Assembly: GCF_003351105.1 (NCBI RefSeq) | Contig: NZ_NKRG01000003.1 | Span: 124,001 to 188,000 of the forward strand | Reading direction: 5' to 3' | DNA length: 64,000 bases | Origin: Thermosipho africanus Ob7 | GTDB taxonomy: Bacteria; Thermotogota; Thermotogae; Thermotogales; Fervidobacteriaceae | Part shown: one piece after another, positions 54,664-62,511 of the stretch | How the letters are laid out: each line of letters begins with the position of its first letter | Numbering within the stretch: position 1 is the first letter of the stretch | Made by a program: the position numbers and the translations under genes | The notes under the pieces: model-generated | The model's input: only the letters and a program-made list of their open reading frames with translations | The model's database searches: none | Told to the model about the DNA's origin: nothing

Positions 54664-56487
54664 ATGAAGCGTTTGTTCGTATTCGTAACTATTTTGTTAT
54701 CATTATTTTTGTTTGCTGAAACAGTAGTTAACTATGCATTACTAGAAGATATCACCACCACAAATATTTGGAACTTACTTGGATCAGGTTCATCAGCTTG
54801 GAATTTTTATATCCAACTCTGGAAATATCCATCACTCCTTGGAATGAATAAAGATGGAATGTTAATCCCATCCGCAGCAGCTGAAATCCCAGAAATTGTT
54901 GAAGAAAATGGAATGTATACAGTAACTGTAAAACTAAGAAAAGACTTAAGATGGAGCGACGGCTCACCATTTACCGCAGACGATGTTGTTTTCACATACA
55001 ATACCATACAAGAAATGCAAATTCCTGGAGGAAACTGGACCGGTGCATATGAACCTAAGAAAGTTGAAAAAATAGATCCATGGACAGTAAAATTCTACTT
55101 TGAAGAAAAGAAAACAATGACAATTTACTACGACACACTTATGACAGCTATCGTCTCCAAAAACTTTTGGCAACCATATGTAGAAAAAGCAAAAGAACAA
55201 GAAAATCCTGTTAATTGGCTATTAAGCCAAGAAGTAGTAGATCCAGGAATCACTGCATTAAATCTTGGAAAAATCGAAAAAGGTGCATTCGTTGAAGTAA
55301 AAAGAGAAGTTGATAAAGATTTCTACTGGGCTCAAGGTGAAAAAAGTATTTTCTATGAAAATGGAGGATTTGTCATTGAAAATCCAAATTCTGGTTATAA
55401 ATGGACAAGTGTAAATCCATCTCCAGAAGGCAATGTAAAGCTAACTGTCGAAAATGGACCTTACGTAGATAAAATAATCTACAGGATCTATGGAAATAAG
55501 TCAGTAGCACTTCAAGCACTCCAAAAAGGTGATGTTGATTTTGTTTTAAATCCAAATGGATTAACATCAGGTGAATTTGAATCATTAAAAGGTGTACCTG
55601 GAATAAAACTTACAGTTAATCCTTCACTAGGCTTTAGATATTTAGCATTTAACTTAAGGAAATTCCCATTCAATATTAAAGAATTCAGACAAGCAATCGC
55701 AGCATTAATAGATAGAGATTATATCTGTAATAGGGTATTGCAAGGAAAAGCAATTCCACTTGCAACTCCTGTTCCACCTGCAAATACATTCTGGTATAAC
55801 TCTGACGTCAAAACAATAGGCGAGGGACTTTCAAGAGGAGAAAGATATCAACTTGCAATAGAACTTTTGAAAAAAGCTGGATTTAGCTGGGACCAAGAAC
55901 CAATTCTTGATTTAAATAACACCGCAAACCCAGTAGTCAAAAAAGGTAAAGGCTTGAAGGGGCCAGATGGAAATTATGTTCCAGATCTTGAACTTCTCTC
56001 TCCATCAGGAGAATACGATCCTATGAGAGCAACCACTGCTATTTACATAGAACAATGGGCAAAAGATTTAGGAATTCCAATCGACGTAAAACTTACAGAC
56101 TTTAATGAAATAGTTACAAGGGCATTTGATGAAGTTGATTTTGATATGTACATGTTGGGTTGGGGTATAGGAAGAGTTCCAACATATTTCAAGAGTTTCT
56201 GGGCATCAGATCAAATGGCACCAGAAGGATTCAATACTCCAGGATACAACAATCCAGAATTTGATGCTCTTGTTGAAGAATTTGAAATGGCAGACAGCTT
56301 TGATGAAGCAGTTGAAGCTATTAAGGCTGCACAAGAACTTCTAGCAGAAGATCTTCCTTACATTATTCTCTTTACAACTCCAATATATGAAGCATACAGA
56401 GATAGCATAGCATTCCCATACACAGACATTCTTGATGGTATTCAAAATTACAATGGATTCCCAGAAAATGTTATGAAAGTAAAATAA
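54664..56487 (+). CDS. Oligopeptide/sugar ABC transporter substrate-binding protein (DppA/OppA family)
   Basis: The 607-residue extracytoplasmic protein has a signal peptide (MKRLFVFVTILLSLFLFAET) and the SBP family 5 signature: LRKDLRWSDGSPFTADDVVFTYNT, then FRQAIAALIDRDYICNRVL and MLGWGIGRVPTYFKSFW. Thermotogales members of this family bind oligosaccharides as well as peptides. The ATG has AAGGAGGGGG upstream; longer readings from 54301 cross the promoter. It is the first gene of a five-gene operon. Confidence 0.92.
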   Translation: MKRLFVFVTILLSLFLFAETVVNYALLEDITTTNIWNLLGSGSSAWNFYIQLWKYPSLLGMNKDGMLIPSAAAEIPEIVEENGMYTVTVKLRKDLRWSDGSPFTADDVVFTYNTIQEMQIPGGNWTGAYEPKKVEKIDPWTVKFYFEEKKTMTIYYDTLMTAIVSKNFWQPYVEKAKEQENPVNWLLSQEVVDPGITALNLGKIEKGAFVEVKREVDKDFYWAQGEKSIFYENGGFVIENPNSGYKWTSVNPSPEGNVKLTVENGPYVDKIIYRIYGNKSVALQALQKGDVDFVLNPNGLTSGEFESLKGVPGIKLTVNPSLGFRYLAFNLRKFPFNIKEFRQAIAALIDRDYICNRVLQGKAIPLATPVPPANTFWYNSDVKTIGEGLSRGERYQLAIELLKKAGFSWDQEPILDLNNTANPVVKKGKGLKGPDGNYVPDLELLSPSGEYDPMRATTAIYIEQWAKDLGIPIDVKLTDFNEIVTRAFDEVDFDMYMLGWGIGRVPTYFKSFWASDQMAPEGFNTPGYNNPEFDALVEEFEMADSFDEAVEAIKAAQELLAEDLPYIILFTTPIYEAYRDSIAFPYTDILDGIQNYNGFPENVMKVK

Positions 56488-56493
56488 TTTCTT

Positions 56494-56520
56494 GCCCCCT
56501 CGTTCGAGGGGGGCTATTTT
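56494..56520 (+). terminator. Intercistronic hairpin after the binding-protein gene
   Basis: GCCCCCTCG (56494-56502) pairs with CGAGGGGG(G)C (56505-56514), followed by TATTTT. It sits between the binding-protein gene and the permease and probably lets the binding protein be made in excess. Confidence 0.75.
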
Positions 56521-56540
56521 AACAAAAAGGAGAGGTGAAA

Positions 56541-57974
56541 ATGAAGACAAAACTTTCGATACAGCTTACAGTAGGAATATTGTTCATAATTACGTTGTTT
56601 TTTTCATCTAAAATTGCTTTTGGATTAATTCTTCCACTTTTAGGAGTTATAATCACTGCATCTAACACAAAAAAAATCCATCACTATGTATTTTTAATTA
56701 TTACCTTAGTTCTTTACTTTTCAGCCTTTTTTAATTTCAAGTATTTATTCATTTTCAGCCCAAGATTCAATTATTTACTTTCAATAGTATTGTACTTATT
56801 TTCACTTCCACTACCTGGACTATTCAAATTTATTAGAAATAGACTATATCAAATGCTAATATTACTCATTATATATGTTACAGTTGTTTTCTTTATATTC
56901 CTTGCTATGCCCGGAGATTACACTTCGAAATTTTTGGACCCAAAAATAATGAAACAACCTGAAATGATGGAAAAAATAAAAAGATTATTTGGTGTTGATG
57001 ACCCGTGGTATGTAAAATATGCAAAACATATGAGAAATTTCTTTAATCTTGAACTTGGAATTTCTTTTTCTGAATATCCGAAAAGAGTCGAAGATATAAT
57101 TGCAGAAAGACTTCCAAGAACAGTTTTTCTATTTTTAATGACAACTTTATCTTCATATATTTTGGGATACAATCTTGGAAAAAGAATAGCTTGGAAAAGG
57201 GGAGGTATTTCAGATAAAGTCGCAACATTTGTCGGAATTGTATTTTGGACAATATTTACACCATTCTTTATGTTAATTATGATATGGTTATTTGGTGTCG
57301 TATTAGGTATTTTCCCATTAAGCGGTTTTATAGAACCATCAAAATGGCTAAATGTAAGCTTCTCAACTCAAGATGTATTTATACGATTATTGCTAAGTGC
57401 TTTTGTTTTAGTAGCATTCTGGGTAGTTGGTATAATCGTTGCTTCATTCATGAAAACGAAAAAAGCTAAAAATATATCAGTACTTTCTATATCGCTTTCG
57501 GGAATTATATTAGTAGTATTATATTGGTTCTTTAATGGATATGGCTATTATGCACTCGATATTATATACCACGTTGTTCTTCCGGTTATATCTCTTACCA
57601 TTCTTGGTTTTGCAGGAAGCATGTTAGTGATGAGGGATACAATGCTTGAAATTATAAAGGAAGATTATATTACAACTGCAAAAGCAAAAGGCCTTCCAGA
57701 CAAAATTGTAAGAGACAAGCATGCAGCAAGAACCGCACTTTTACCACTCGTTACAAGCTTTGTATTATCTCTCGCCTCAACAGTAAGTGGTGGTGTTATC
57801 ACTGAAACTATGTTTTCTTGGAAGGGTATGGGACTTACTCTCTTAAATGCAACACTTGTTCAAGATACCCCACTTGCTATGGGCTGCCTTACCTTTACAG
57901 GCGTGTTTATTTTAGTTGCTCATTTGGTAGCCGATATTTTATACGCAATCCTAGATCCTAGAATCAGATATTGA
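56541..57974 (+). CDS. ABC transporter permease, DppB-like, with N-terminal extension
   Basis: The 477-residue membrane protein carries the usual DppB core from about residue 95: FIRNRLYQMLILLIIYVTVVFFIF, MPGDY, VDDPWYVKYAKHMRNFFNLELGISF, and the EAA loop DYITTAKAKGLPDKIVRDKHAARTALLPL. The first 95 residues add about four hydrophobic helices that ordinary DppB proteins (about 310-340 residues) lack, and another helix pair is inserted around residue 280-330. ATG 56541 has AGGAGAGG upstream. Confidence 0.85.
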   Translation: MKTKLSIQLTVGILFIITLFFSSKIAFGLILPLLGVIITASNTKKIHHYVFLIITLVLYFSAFFNFKYLFIFSPRFNYLLSIVLYLFSLPLPGLFKFIRNRLYQMLILLIIYVTVVFFIFLAMPGDYTSKFLDPKIMKQPEMMEKIKRLFGVDDPWYVKYAKHMRNFFNLELGISFSEYPKRVEDIIAERLPRTVFLFLMTTLSSYILGYNLGKRIAWKRGGISDKVATFVGIVFWTIFTPFFMLIMIWLFGVVLGIFPLSGFIEPSKWLNVSFSTQDVFIRLLLSAFVLVAFWVVGIIVASFMKTKKAKNISVLSISLSGIILVVLYWFFNGYGYYALDIIYHVVLPVISLTILGFAGSMLVMRDTMLEIIKEDYITTAKAKGLPDKIVRDKHAARTALLPLVTSFVLSLASTVSGGVITETMFSWKGMGLTLLNATLVQDTPLAMGCLTFTGVFILVAHLVADILYAILDPRIRY

Positions 57975-57987
57975 AGGGGTGAAGCAA

Positions 57988-60516
57988 ATGGCAAATGAAT
58001 CAATCACCAAAATAAAAATAAAATTATTTTTGAAGAATTTTAAAAAGAATTGGGAACTATTTAAAGAAAATAAAATGGGAGTTTTTGGTTTAAGCATTAT
58101 TATAATATTTGGGCTTTTTGCAATTTCCTACCCAATTGCCTGGCAATTTGTTGACCATAGTATATATAATCCAGTTACTGGGACAGATCCTAGAATACAT
58201 GATATATCATACATTTCAAAATACATGTCACCACAAAATGTTATAAAAGGAATAGAAATTCCTCCATCAATAATATTTACATATTCTTTCTTGGATCAAG
58301 GGGAAGAATTTAAAAAACAGATAGAACAAAAAATAGATCAGGCACAAAGAAAATTCGTAAATTTAGATTATGCACAAGCTTTTAGGCATGTACTTGATTC
58401 AATTGTTGATAATTACTTTCCTATGAAAGAAAGAATAAGATTTCAAACACAAGTAAATCAATTAGCTGAACATGATCTAATAACAATAAAACCTATTGCA
58501 CAAGTTATCGAAATAGGTGACAGAAAAAAATTCTCACTAACTTCATTTAAAAAATTGCTTGAGAATATAGATATAGCAACTCTGGCAAGTGCATTATCAC
58601 CTTATAAGGACGAAAAAGAAATTTCAACTATTTCACTATGGATTAAAATTGCTTCCGGAAAGGATAAAAGAGAACTCTTTATAGAACTACTCAACAAAGA
58701 ATATTCTAATGAAGAGATCAAAGAAGCACAAAATAAAATTTACAAAGCTATTTCTACACTTGCAAAAGAAAACATAATCGATGTTCAAGTATCCGTTTCA
58801 AATCAATCTGATCTTGAATCAACAATAGAATTTGAAAAAATCCCCACATTTGATCTTGCTAAAGCAACTGTATTCAATACTTTAGTTGATATTCTTACAT
58901 TATCAAAAATTAACAATAATTATGATGAAACAATTAAAATGCTTAAAAGTTCAAAATATGAAAACCTATTAGATTTTGCAATTTCAAAAATTCCTGACCT
59001 CAGTGTTACAGAAAATAAAGAATCAAATAAAAACAGAATAACAAAATATTTTGAAGAACTTTCAAAAGAATTTTCAAAATTAGGCTTAGAATTTAATTTA
59101 AAAGAACCAGCAAAACTTCTTGATAATCTTTCTGGGATAAACCTTGCGATTATAACCTTTGATCTTTCGCCAAGTATTAAAGCAAAATTAGAAGATAATC
59201 TTTTTGATTATCCACAAATACTTGAAAGCTTTAGGAAAAAACAAGAAAATCTATTTAAAATTGTTGCAAATTCAAGAGCCTACATGTTATCAGTTGTAAG
59301 TAAAATAACCAATATTCAATTAAACAGTATCGATATTCCAAAAATATATTTGTCATTAGACTTTACAAAACTTATTCCTGCATTGGATGACCCAATGATA
59401 AACCTTCTAGCACTTGCAACTTATAACGCAAAACACTTTGATCTTATAGTTGAAAATTTAGAAAGTGCTGGTGATGCTAATTATAGAAGAATAGATATTG
59501 TTGAAAAATTAAAGAATCATTCACCTGTAACAAACCATATAAAGTTATTAACCAATAGTGAAGATAAGATAATATCAAAAACTATTCTTTCACAAATCAT
59601 AAAAGAATATACAAATAATCTATCTGAAAATAGTAGGAAATACTGGGAAGAAAAATATTCAGATATTTTGACTTCAAGCAATGACTTAAAAGAAGCATTG
59701 AATTATCTAAATCAACCGCTTAATTTATCTGAAAAAGAAGCAAAAGAGCTAGTTGTAAGCATTTATAACGATCTTGCTCTTGCATCCAAATTAGGCATAC
59801 AACATCCTTTACCACCAAACAGATGGCATATACTTGGTACAGATCCAGGTGGTAGAGATATATTCATGCAACTTTGGAGAAGTACCCCAAGTGAATTTAT
59901 GCTCGGTTTCTTGGCAGCAATCATTACCGTAACTATAGGTACCATTATTGGAACAACTGCTGCTTATTATGGCGGTCTTATAGATACTTTTTTCATGAGA
60001 CTTGCAGATTTAATGTTGTTATTCCCCGGTATCGCATTCTTAATAGTACTTTCAGGATTTTTCAAACTTAATCTTTTCTGGTTAGCTCTTATTCTAGGTC
60101 TTTTAGGTGGTTTTGGAGGAATTACATTGGTTATAAAAGCTCAGGCACTTACAATTAAAGTAAAACCTTACATAGAAGCTGCAAAAGTTGCCGGAGCTTC
60201 AAACAGATATATTATCTTTAACCATATAATTCCTAATGTTATGCCTCTTTCTTTTCTATACATGATGTTTAATGTCACAGGAGCAGTTTTTTCAGAAGCT
60301 TCTTTAAGCTTCTTTGGACTTCTAAGAATAAGAATTAGTTGGGGTATTATGATAAATACTGCTTGGACTTCTGGTTATCTTTCATCTGGTAATATAGGTT
60401 CATACTGGTGGTTATGGGTTCCAGCCGGTTTAATAATCACAATATTCTGTTCAGGATTTTATTTCTTGGGTAGAGGTCTGGAAGAAATTGTAAATCCAAG
60501 ACTTAGAAAGAGGTGA
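57988..60516 (+). CDS. ABC transporter permease, DppC-like, with a very large extracytoplasmic insertion
   Basis: The 842-residue protein has an N-terminal cytoplasmic segment and TM1 (about 33-53) like DppC, then about 550 residues predicted to lie outside the membrane, and only then the normal DppC remainder: PLPPNRWHILGTDPGGRDIF near residue 605-620, five helices, the EAA loop IEAAKVAGASNRYIIFNHIIPNVMPLSF and the C-terminus GRGLEEIVNPRLRKR. Ordinary DppC is about 280-310 residues. The insertion is mainly helical, lysine- and glutamate-rich and unlike any domain I recognise. The frame is open throughout, so it is a true fusion. ATG 57988; GTG 57979 is too close to the ribosome site. Confidence 0.85.
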   Translation: MANESITKIKIKLFLKNFKKNWELFKENKMGVFGLSIIIIFGLFAISYPIAWQFVDHSIYNPVTGTDPRIHDISYISKYMSPQNVIKGIEIPPSIIFTYSFLDQGEEFKKQIEQKIDQAQRKFVNLDYAQAFRHVLDSIVDNYFPMKERIRFQTQVNQLAEHDLITIKPIAQVIEIGDRKKFSLTSFKKLLENIDIATLASALSPYKDEKEISTISLWIKIASGKDKRELFIELLNKEYSNEEIKEAQNKIYKAISTLAKENIIDVQVSVSNQSDLESTIEFEKIPTFDLAKATVFNTLVDILTLSKINNNYDETIKMLKSSKYENLLDFAISKIPDLSVTENKESNKNRITKYFEELSKEFSKLGLEFNLKEPAKLLDNLSGINLAIITFDLSPSIKAKLEDNLFDYPQILESFRKKQENLFKIVANSRAYMLSVVSKITNIQLNSIDIPKIYLSLDFTKLIPALDDPMINLLALATYNAKHFDLIVENLESAGDANYRRIDIVEKLKNHSPVTNHIKLLTNSEDKIISKTILSQIIKEYTNNLSENSRKYWEEKYSDILTSSNDLKEALNYLNQPLNLSEKEAKELVVSIYNDLALASKLGIQHPLPPNRWHILGTDPGGRDIFMQLWRSTPSEFMLGFLAAIITVTIGTIIGTTAAYYGGLIDTFFMRLADLMLLFPGIAFLIVLSGFFKLNLFWLALILGLLGGFGGITLVIKAQALTIKVKPYIEAAKVAGASNRYIIFNHIIPNVMPLSFLYMMFNVTGAVFSEASLSFFGLLRIRISWGIMINTAWTSGYLSSGNIGSYWWLWVPAGLIITIFCSGFYFLGRGLEEIVNPRLRKR

Positions 60517-60521
60517 TTTAC

Positions 60522-61529
60522 GTGGCATTATTAGAAGTTAAAGATTTAAAAATGCACTATAAAACAAAAATGGGATATGTAAAAGCGGTTGATGGAATCA
60601 GTTTTACTTTAGATAGAGGAGAAAGTTTAGGAATAGTTGGTGAATCTGGTTGTGGAAAAACTTCCGTTTCTATGACAATGTTAAGACTCCTTCCAGAAAA
60701 TGGAGAATTCAGAGGTGGTAATGTCTTCTTTGAAGATGATAACGGAAAAAAGGTAGACTTAGTTTCTTTACCAGAAAATGAAATGAGAAAATATAGATGG
60801 AAAGGTCTTGCGATGGTTTTTCAAGCTGCAATGAATTCATTAAACCCTGTATACAAAGTAGGCGATCAAATTGTTGAAGCTATATTAACACATTATCCAG
60901 AAAAAACAATAGATGAAGCCAAAGAAAAAGTAGCAGAATTGTTTGAACTGGTAGGTCTTGATCCAAAAAGAATGGAACAATATCCACATCAATATAGTGG
61001 TGGAATGAAGCAAAGAGCAGTAATTGCACTTGCCTTATCTTGTGATCCAAAAGTAATAATTGCAGATGAACCAACAACTGCATTGGACGTTATCGTACAA
61101 GATAAAATATTGAAAGAAATGAAAAAAATTCAAGAAAAACTTAATATGGCAATGATTTATATTTCTCATGATATAGCCGTAATTGCGGAAGTTAGTGATA
61201 AAATAGCCGTTATGTATGCAGGAAAATTTGTAGAGCTTGCAGATTCAATTACAATTTTTAAAAATCCAATGCACCCTTACACCTTCTTATTGATGAACGC
61301 ATTTCCAAGTACTATTGGAGAAAAGAAAAAACTTCTAACTATTCCAGGAGAACCCCCAAACCTTTTAAATCCTCCAAAAGGATGTAGATTTGCTCCAAGA
61401 TGTCCCTTTGCAACGGAAAAATGTAAAGAAGAAGAACCAGAGTACAGGGAAATTGAAGAAGGTCATTATGTTGCATGTTGGTATCCATTAACAAAAGAGG
61501 TGAGAGATAATGCAAAAAACAATCTATAA
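60522..61529 (+). CDS. Oligopeptide ABC transporter ATP-binding protein, DppD-like
   Basis: The 335-residue protein has Walker A GESGCGKTS, the signature YSGGMKQRAVIALAL, Walker B VIIADEPTTALD, and the C-terminal cysteine motif GCRFAPRCPFATEKCKEEEPE typical of DppD/OppD. GTG 60522 has GAGGTGA upstream. It overlaps dppF-like by 20 nt and follows the large permease. Confidence 0.92.
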   Translation: MALLEVKDLKMHYKTKMGYVKAVDGISFTLDRGESLGIVGESGCGKTSVSMTMLRLLPENGEFRGGNVFFEDDNGKKVDLVSLPENEMRKYRWKGLAMVFQAAMNSLNPVYKVGDQIVEAILTHYPEKTIDEAKEKVAELFELVGLDPKRMEQYPHQYSGGMKQRAVIALALSCDPKVIIADEPTTALDVIVQDKILKEMKKIQEKLNMAMIYISHDIAVIAEVSDKIAVMYAGKFVELADSITIFKNPMHPYTFLLMNAFPSTIGEKKKLLTIPGEPPNLLNPPKGCRFAPRCPFATEKCKEEEPEYREIEEGHYVACWYPLTKEVRDNAKNNL

Positions 61530-62511
61530 AACTGATACAATTTTAAAAATTGAGAATTTAAAAAAGTATTTTGCTGCAGATAGAGGCCTTTTTTCTCGTG
61601 TAAAACATTTTGTTCATGCAGTTGATGATGTATCTTTTGAAATAAAAAGAGGAAAATCACTTGGGCTTGTTGGTGAATCTGGGTGTGGAAAAACTACAAC
61701 TGGAAAAGTTATAGTTGGTCTTGAAAAACCAACCGACGGAAAAGTCTATATTGATGGAAAAGAAATTAGTGAATATGAATCAAAGCTTGAATATCATAAA
61801 AAGGTACAAATGATTTTCCAGGATCCGTATGAATCACTAAATCCAAGAATGACTATTTTTGATATTATTGCTGAACCACTTAACATTCACAACATTGGAA
61901 ACTTAAAAGAAAGAGAAGAAAAAGTTTTAAAATTGCTTCAAGATGTTGGCCTTACACCACCTTCAAGTTTTCTATGGAGATATCCACATGAGCTCTCAGG
62001 AGGACAAAGGCAAAGAGTAGCAATAGCTAGGGCTTTGGTACTTAACCCAACATTTATAGTAGCAGATGAACCAACTTCAATGCTTGACGTGTCTGTTAGG
62101 ACAGGAGTTATGAACCTTTTAATGGAGCTGCAAGAAAAATACAACATGAGCTATTTGTATATCACTCACGATTTTGCAGTGGCAAGATACATGTGTGATA
62201 AAATTGCTGTAATGTATCTAGGAAAAATAGTAGAATATGCTGAAACAGAAGAGTTACTCTTTAATCCAATGCATCCATATACAAGAGCACTCCTTACAGC
62301 AGTGCCAGTACCTGATCCAGAACATAAAAAAGATGAACCAAATATAATTGGTAGCGTTAGCAAACCAATAAATCCACCTCCTCGCTGTAGATTCTACGAT
62401 AGATGTCCATTCAGGACGGAAAAATGTAAAAATGAACCACACCCTCAATTAAAAGATATAGGAAACAACCATTATGTTGCATGCTACTTGGTACAAGAAG
62501 GAAAAATATAA
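61510..62511 (+). CDS. Oligopeptide ABC transporter ATP-binding protein, DppF-like
   Basis: The 333-residue protein has Walker A GESGCGKTT, the Q-loop MIFQDPYESLNPRMT, signature LSGGQRQRVAIARAL, Walker B FIVADEPTSMLD and C-terminal RCRFYDRCPFRTEKCKNEPHP. It is the second ATPase of the dipeptide/oligopeptide transporter. It overlaps the DppD-like gene by 20 nt. The operon ends in a terminator just after it. Confidence 0.92.
   Translation: MQKTIYKTDTILKIENLKKYFAADRGLFSRVKHFVHAVDDVSFEIKRGKSLGLVGESGCGKTTTGKVIVGLEKPTDGKVYIDGKEISEYESKLEYHKKVQMIFQDPYESLNPRMTIFDIIAEPLNIHNIGNLKEREEKVLKLLQDVGLTPPSSFLWRYPHELSGGQRQRVAIARALVLNPTFIVADEPTSMLDVSVRTGVMNLLMELQEKYNMSYLYITHDFAVARYMCDKIAVMYLGKIVEYAETEELLFNPMHPYTRALLTAVPVPDPEHKKDEPNIIGSVSKPINPPPRCRFYDRCPFRTEKCKNEPHPQLKDIGNNHYVACYLVQEGKI

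Follow-up and report, generated by a model that had tools for sequence, protein, structure and literature searches.

In the textbook view of type I importers, the binding protein and short loops meet. In the E. coli peptide importer DppABCDF, DppA sits as a cap over DppB and DppC, and its cleft is entered by a scoop motif, the TM1-TM2 region of DppB (PMC12136057). The window analysed here, a stretch of 64,000 nucleotides from Thermosipho africanus Ob7 (contig NZ_NKRG01000003.1), encodes a DppC/OppC-type permease whose core matches the structures of the E. coli DppBCDF (8z1v-8z1z) and M. tuberculosis OppABCD (8j5t) importers at Z ~20. It shares with them TM1, the permease core, the coupling helix, and the operon context, in which a family 5 binding protein, DppB, and two ATPases are encoded together. 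In contrast to these known importers, the window protein has ~540 extra residues between TM1 and TM2.

The permease gene occupies 57988..60516 and encodes 842 aa from the ATG at 57988, with an alternative GTG start at 57979; like all features of the window described below, it lies on the forward strand, and the frame 57979/57988-60516 is intact, single, and open. The OppC_N/TM1 region is located at 58048..58146 (residues 21-53) by hydropathy and by the Pfam model (E 3e-5), which scores just above its cut-off (24.2 vs 23.9 bits). The BPD_transp_1 permease core, including the EAA-like coupling motif EAAKVAGAS, follows at 59938..60510 (residues 651-841; 74.3 vs 26.4 bits). Beyond these two, a Pfam scan of the whole protein gave no family above cut-off. 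NCBIfam assigns the C-terminal part to the Opp/Dpp permeases, and phmmer against PDB sequences aligns residues 605-840 with the OppC and DppC chains of solved transporters. Searches of Pfam, NCBIfam, and PDB sequences with the whole protein returned no match to the insert.

The operon (54664-62511) is complete. It consists of a family 5 solute-binding protein (54664..56487) that has a plain signal peptide without a lipobox and is hence soluble, the 479-aa partner permease DppB (56535..57974) with ~90 extra N-terminal residues that include extra hydrophobic segments, DppC itself, and two ATPases recognised by sequence motifs, one DppD-like (60513..61529) and one DppF-like (61510..62511). The gene thus encodes DppC in an importer of the type I peptide family whose subunits are all present. 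Its 842 residues exceed the usual ~300 residues with a short TM1-TM2 loop; as that length is usual and not defining, its classification as a variant of DppC/OppC stands. The initial annotation had described a real insertion after TM1 of an otherwise normal DppC, and the intact frame, the OppC_N and BPD_transp_1 flanks, and orthologues in 17 other genomes confirm it.

Extent, topology and constraint of the insert

The insert spans 58189..59802 (residues 68-605, ~540 aa) and directly follows the motif YNPVTGTD (58165..58188, residues 60-67), which marks the insertion site. It is designated type A here, to distinguish it from a type B insert that lies before the motif. By hydropathy, no segment between TM1 (residues 32-50) and residue 637 is as hydrophobic as a membrane helix, which places the insert outside the membrane. 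The Lys-rich N-terminus before TM1 puts it on the extracytoplasmic side according to the positive-inside inference, in agreement with the earlier claim that it lies on the side of the binding protein. Given the DppA cap and the position of the DppB scoop in the DppA cleft, the DppC insert would start beside the binding protein. The size and mostly helical make-up that had been proposed hold as well, whereas the description as lysine- and glutamate-rich is only partly right: leucine (11.6%) and isoleucine (11.4%) exceed lysine (10.5%) and glutamate (8.1%), and serine makes up 9.0%.

Conservation is uneven along the insert. Residues 68-106 (58189..58305) are the best conserved part, with a mean column majority of 0.74 (the insert as a whole averages 0.56 and the permease core 0.90), and the last 20 residues of the insert are also among its best conserved parts. 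The orthologue alignment has 45 invariant positions in residues 58-605. In one close, unsaturated Thermosipho pair, dN is 0.024 and dS is 0.181 for the insert (ratio 0.13), whereas the core has a dN of 0.001 and a dS of 0.212 (ratio 0.007); in wider pairs, the dN of the insert is about ten-fold that of the core. The insert is under purifying selection, yet it evolves much faster than the core. Together, the shared orthologues and the dN/dS of ~0.13 indicate that it is translated and constrained, and is not an artefact of assembly or frame. An intein is not indicated either, as no splicing (Hint) domain model of Pfam or NCBIfam matched the protein at E below 1.

Distribution of large inserts in the TM1-TM2 loop

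The segment profile detects the type A insert in the window genome and 17 others, that is, in 18 of 103 Thermotogota genomes. Within the phylum, it is confined to the window's Thermosipho-like genus, the nearest genus, Fervidobacterium, an allied genus, and one further family. The insert profile matched 0 of 299 Bacillota and 0 of 100 Bipolaricaulota genomes, counts that stand without a positive control within those phyla, though the profile of the FliG-like segment described below matches strongly in the 18 Thermotogota genomes. Both phyla contain insert-free relatives of the permease. The expectation of a lineage-specific part is thus supported. Insert-free orthologues of ~320-335 residues are present in Pseudothermotoga, Mesoaciditogaceae, Bipolaricaulota, and Bacillota. 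Their cores are up to 68-69% identical to those of insert-bearing proteins, and their loop reads ...Y[DN]PxxGxD...HPxPPS...GTDPxGRD.

The type B proteins (group L078-L082) have 950-960 residues and an insert of ~650 residues in which no domain is recognised. Type A follows YNPVTGTD and type B precedes YDPVTGND, and hhalign finds no similarity between the two inserts (probability 1.3%). In the core tree, type A forms one group of 16 rows (support 95/98), and type B forms another (99/95) that joins the insert-free Pseudothermotoga (100/98). One tree row marked 'A', L032, reflects an artefact of the ORF start; its matched region is ~305 aa, and it is read as insert-free. The opposite sides of the motif, the dissimilar inserts, and the core tree make two independent insertions in one orthologue group the simplest reading. 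The type A insert arose once, in one branch of Thermotogota. The partner permease also varies among these operons. The N-terminal extension of DppB (56535-56825) is present in type A operons and absent from the insert-free operons examined, and in type B operons DppB is instead longer (525 aa), with additional hydrophobic segments in its interior.

Large inserts after TM1 are not limited to this orthologue group. In the same genome, they occur in two sugar permeases, MalG (803 aa) and a second one of 721 aa, and in a further DppC of 543 aa, and inserts after TM1 are also present in a 433-aa permease, where the insert is coiled-coil-like, and in a 394-aa permease. MalG proteins of ~790-940 residues are found in almost all of the 103 Thermotogota genomes. 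They match the DppC insert in topological position and size class, as in L071:2818-5226, although the two inserts have no detectable sequence relation (hhalign probability 0.3%). The unrelated inserts in MalG and other permeases identify the TM1-TM2 loop as a recurrent expansion site in Thermotogota permeases. Among the OppC_N matches listed, frames of at least 420 residues make up ~45% in Thermotogota vs ~7% in the Bacillota sample, shares that were counted by eye from score-ordered lists of open frames and are indicative only. The earlier view of the DppC insert therefore has to be amended: in Thermotogota permeases, this loop often holds a large insert, such inserts have more than one origin, and DppC is one of several cases. 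The literature searched contained no paper on these inserts.

The inserts themselves are diverse. Four permeases of the same genome (L069:2240-4402, L073:2510-3808, L072:2500-3681, and L070:1589-3217) carry mutually different large inserts after TM1; that of the second DppC looks strand-rich by sequence, and one of the other three is coiled-coil-like. In MalG L071:2818-5226 (G000:C9:9317-11725) and at loci L089-L118, the insert after TM1 has ~500 residues. No Pfam domain scores above cut-off in the MalG insert, and neither the type B nor the MalG inserts match FliG by hhalign or Pfam. Homology among the type A, type B, and MalG inserts was considered and is unsupported (hhalign probability 0.3-1.3%).

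Evidence for a FliG-like module

The lead to FliG came from helix motifs read by eye, and the tests followed. One AlphaFold2 model covered the full protein, from a 13-row alignment, and another the insert by itself, from 5 rows. In both, the insert is mostly helical, with a confidently predicted all-helical block at residues ~140-425 (58405..59262; pLDDT mostly 80-95), while pLDDT is mostly <50 at residues ~440-605. When the insert-only model was compared with the PDB by VIA-align, ranks 1-10 were all FliG structures, at Z 12.5 (3usw), 12.3, 12.2, 12.2, 12.0, 11.2, 11.1, 11.1, 11.0, and 10.7, and rank 11 was an unrelated structure at Z 4.1. Nine of the ten matches have an rmsd of 1.9-2.3 Å over 86-89 residues; the exception, 1lkv, is a flexible 152-residue alignment that includes upstream helices (rmsd 15 Å). 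The full-length model gives the same FliG match at Z 12.5, and Foldseek lists FliG at probability 0.63-0.96 with an E-value that is not significant. The matched residues 171-267 correspond to residues 235-323 of T. maritima FliG, its C-terminal domain, and the six-helix fold of that domain is present in the predicted models of this region. It is thus strongly supported, on the basis of predicted models, that residues ~171-267 (58498..58788) have the fold of the FliG C-terminal (torque) domain.

No fold was identified for the insert outside residues ~171-267; for the second half (~440-605), absence from the list of folds is no evidence of a new fold. The following residues 268-360 (58789-59067) form six helices similar in lengths and spacing to the preceding module, which resembles a duplication. 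Tandem FliG-like repeats were considered on this suggestive helix pattern, and self-comparison of the profile gave them no support.

The sequence evidence points in the same direction, though each test alone is marginal and the FliG sets, which come from related genomes, are not independent. FliG_C (PF01706) is the only family matched by most orthologue segments. It matches the segment in 14 of 16 orthologues (best E 6.6e-4; window protein E 0.013) and 8 of 15 full-length orthologues (best E 0.017), and its score for the window protein, 16.2 bits, is under the Pfam gathering cut-off of 23.3 bits. In a six-frame FliG_C search of the 103 genomes, the insert-bearing permease was matched in at least 10 genomes (E 0.0024-0.059), among weak matches that rank behind FliG itself; these also include FliG middle domains, a MotE-like protein, and MgtE. 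In reverse, the segment profile retrieved FliG in 31 genomes (E 0.01-0.6) beside its own orthologues; its best non-orthologous match was another protein, in G067 (E 0.0017), ahead of FliG, and about a dozen further matches were scattered, each found once or twice. By hhalign, the FliG-like region against Thermotogota FliG gives P 2.5e-4, and the segment alone against a broader FliG set gives P 0.0021. The whole insert against 60 more diverse FliG sequences gives P 0.018 (probability 2.6%) with a score of 26.7, and 100 column shuffles reach at most 24.3. A profile of five inserts did not retrieve FliG from PDB sequences, and NCBIfam gave only scattered weak matches to the segment, such as MnmH in 4 of 16 orthologues. 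Taken together, the fold and the marginal sequence tests make it likely that the module is a remote homologue of the FliG C-terminal domain.

The structure prediction and HMM search that the initial annotation had proposed for residues 55-605 point to a FliG_C-like module, albeit with a Pfam score below cut-off. Its statement that the domain was not recognised no longer applies to residues ~171-267, where the FliG_C fold is accompanied by a faint signature, and still applies to the rest of the insert.

Two side observations concern other FliG-related loci. The T. maritima protein L149:1656-2567 is MotE-like: it has a single hydrophobic segment at the N-terminus, a coiled coil, and a C-terminal part that resembles FliG, and it adjoins a long gene resembling the flagellar hook-length protein FliK. 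The genomes G081-G084 (genus g4, same family) have neither a FliG_C match nor an insert-bearing DppC, which may be mere parallel gene loss.

Possible roles and comparison with known systems

We tentatively favour the reading that the insert is an outward docking or capture arm for the soluble binding protein, bearing the FliG_C-like module. The short TM1-TM2 loop of DppC has been replaced by a ~540-residue helical platform with one FliG_C-like module, and this platform would stand beside the binding-protein dock and work as the arm. In the unusually large Thermotogota periplasm, it may locally enrich the soluble binding protein close to the translocator; at the ends of the rods, a large periplasm lies within the toga (PMC5487896). 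Seating of the arm, by packing against the permease, would fall to the proximal stretch (residues 68-106) and the distal linker (585-605), and contact with a partner to the fast-evolving distal part. The soluble binding protein, lacking a lipobox, and the N-terminally extended DppB of type A operons speak for this role. On the contrary, insert-free orthologues in Pseudothermotoga and Mesoaciditogaceae also have soluble binding proteins, and so an importer of this kind in the same phylum can do without the arm.

Several other explanations have to be weighed against a docking arm. The loop may simply tolerate large insertions, with helical domains that stay folded as passengers, or by a ratchet, and do little for transport. 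The unrelated inserts in the same loop of different permeases of one genome would fit such tolerance, as would the independent type A and type B inserts in one orthologue group with close insert-free relatives and the far faster evolution of the insert than of the core. This explanation is nevertheless unlikely in view of the retention of the insert in 18 genomes of several lineages, its dN/dS of ~0.13, its strongly conserved proximal stretch and 45 invariant positions, and the accompanying DppB extension. FliG-type domains are protein-interaction modules, and the insert could instead be a platform for another partner, such as an assembly factor, a peptidase in the periplasm, or, if the helical modules self-associate, another copy of the transporter. 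The motility protein MotE resides in the periplasm and interacts with other proteins there (PMC10954123), and the FliG_C model matches the MotE-like L149:1656-2567. The operon encodes no candidate partner beyond the usual five subunits, however, and we consider such a platform quite unlikely.

A role as an anchor, holding the importer to the peptidoglycan or to the outer sheath (toga), would suit a long, helical, extracytoplasmic insert and the peculiar sheath of Thermotogota (PMC5487896). Such an anchor is improbable, since Pfam and NCBIfam show no peptidoglycan-binding, SLH, or OmpA-like domain in the insert, and relatives in the same phylum lack the insert. The FliG match itself might be a coincidental packing of helices in a predicted model, the insert being an unrelated new helical fold. 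The individually marginal sequence scores and the non-significant Foldseek E-values leave room for this, and the aligner cautions that a common arrangement of helices can bring helical models to Z 13. With the insert-only model, in contrast, Z exceeds 4.1 for FliG chains only. The insert residues and the FliG region picked out by the structure match are also those found by the Pfam HMM and by hhalign, which makes coincidence very unlikely.

In a single phylum, this loop has grown by hundreds of residues, at two sites independently within one orthologue group and also in several other permeases, and this repetition points to a selective reason that lies in the particular envelope of the phylum. 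One such arm contains the predicted FliG torque-domain fold. It is possible, though on balance rather doubtful, that a FliG-type domain moved to the outer face of an importer as a receptor for the binding protein, and that the second permease subunit of Thermotogota importers repeatedly gained unrelated giant TM1-TM2 arms with which soluble binding proteins are caught in a periplasm of large volume. With identities of up to 68-69% between insert-bearing and insert-free cores, what the arm does is testable by clean domain deletion or transplantation.

To our knowledge, the FliG torque-domain fold is otherwise known only from the flagellar rotor and its relatives MgtE and MotE. The predicted module shares with the FliG_C domain (PF01706; 3usw, 1qc7, 1lkv) its fold and the faint signature LLxxxDxxxLAxAL ... 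AQxKI. Unlike FliG, it is located in an extracytoplasmic permease loop; Pfam finds neither FliG_N nor FliG_M in DppC, and the window genome encodes its own FliG separately. The torque helix motif NMS[KQ]RA...GPVR of T. maritima FliG is absent from the window protein and its orthologues, and motor function is therefore not expected. At the superfamily level, the DppC insert resembles MotE and the N-terminal domains of MgtE in having a FliG-like helical module outside FliG, although these proteins are not part of an ABC permease. MotE is likewise periplasmic (PMC10954123).

As an importer permease with a large extracytoplasmic insertion, the window protein is comparable to MalF of the E. coli maltose importer, whose P2 loop lies against the binding protein (PMC2246101, PMC8134467). 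The P2 loop of E. coli MalF has 180 residues; in both E. coli and Thermotogales MalF, P2 is placed between TM3 and TM4 (PMC2246101). In contrast to this position in the first permease, the DppC insert is helical and follows TM1 of DppC. The arm could nonetheless act by analogy much as the unrelated P2 loop does, which reaches up along MalE.
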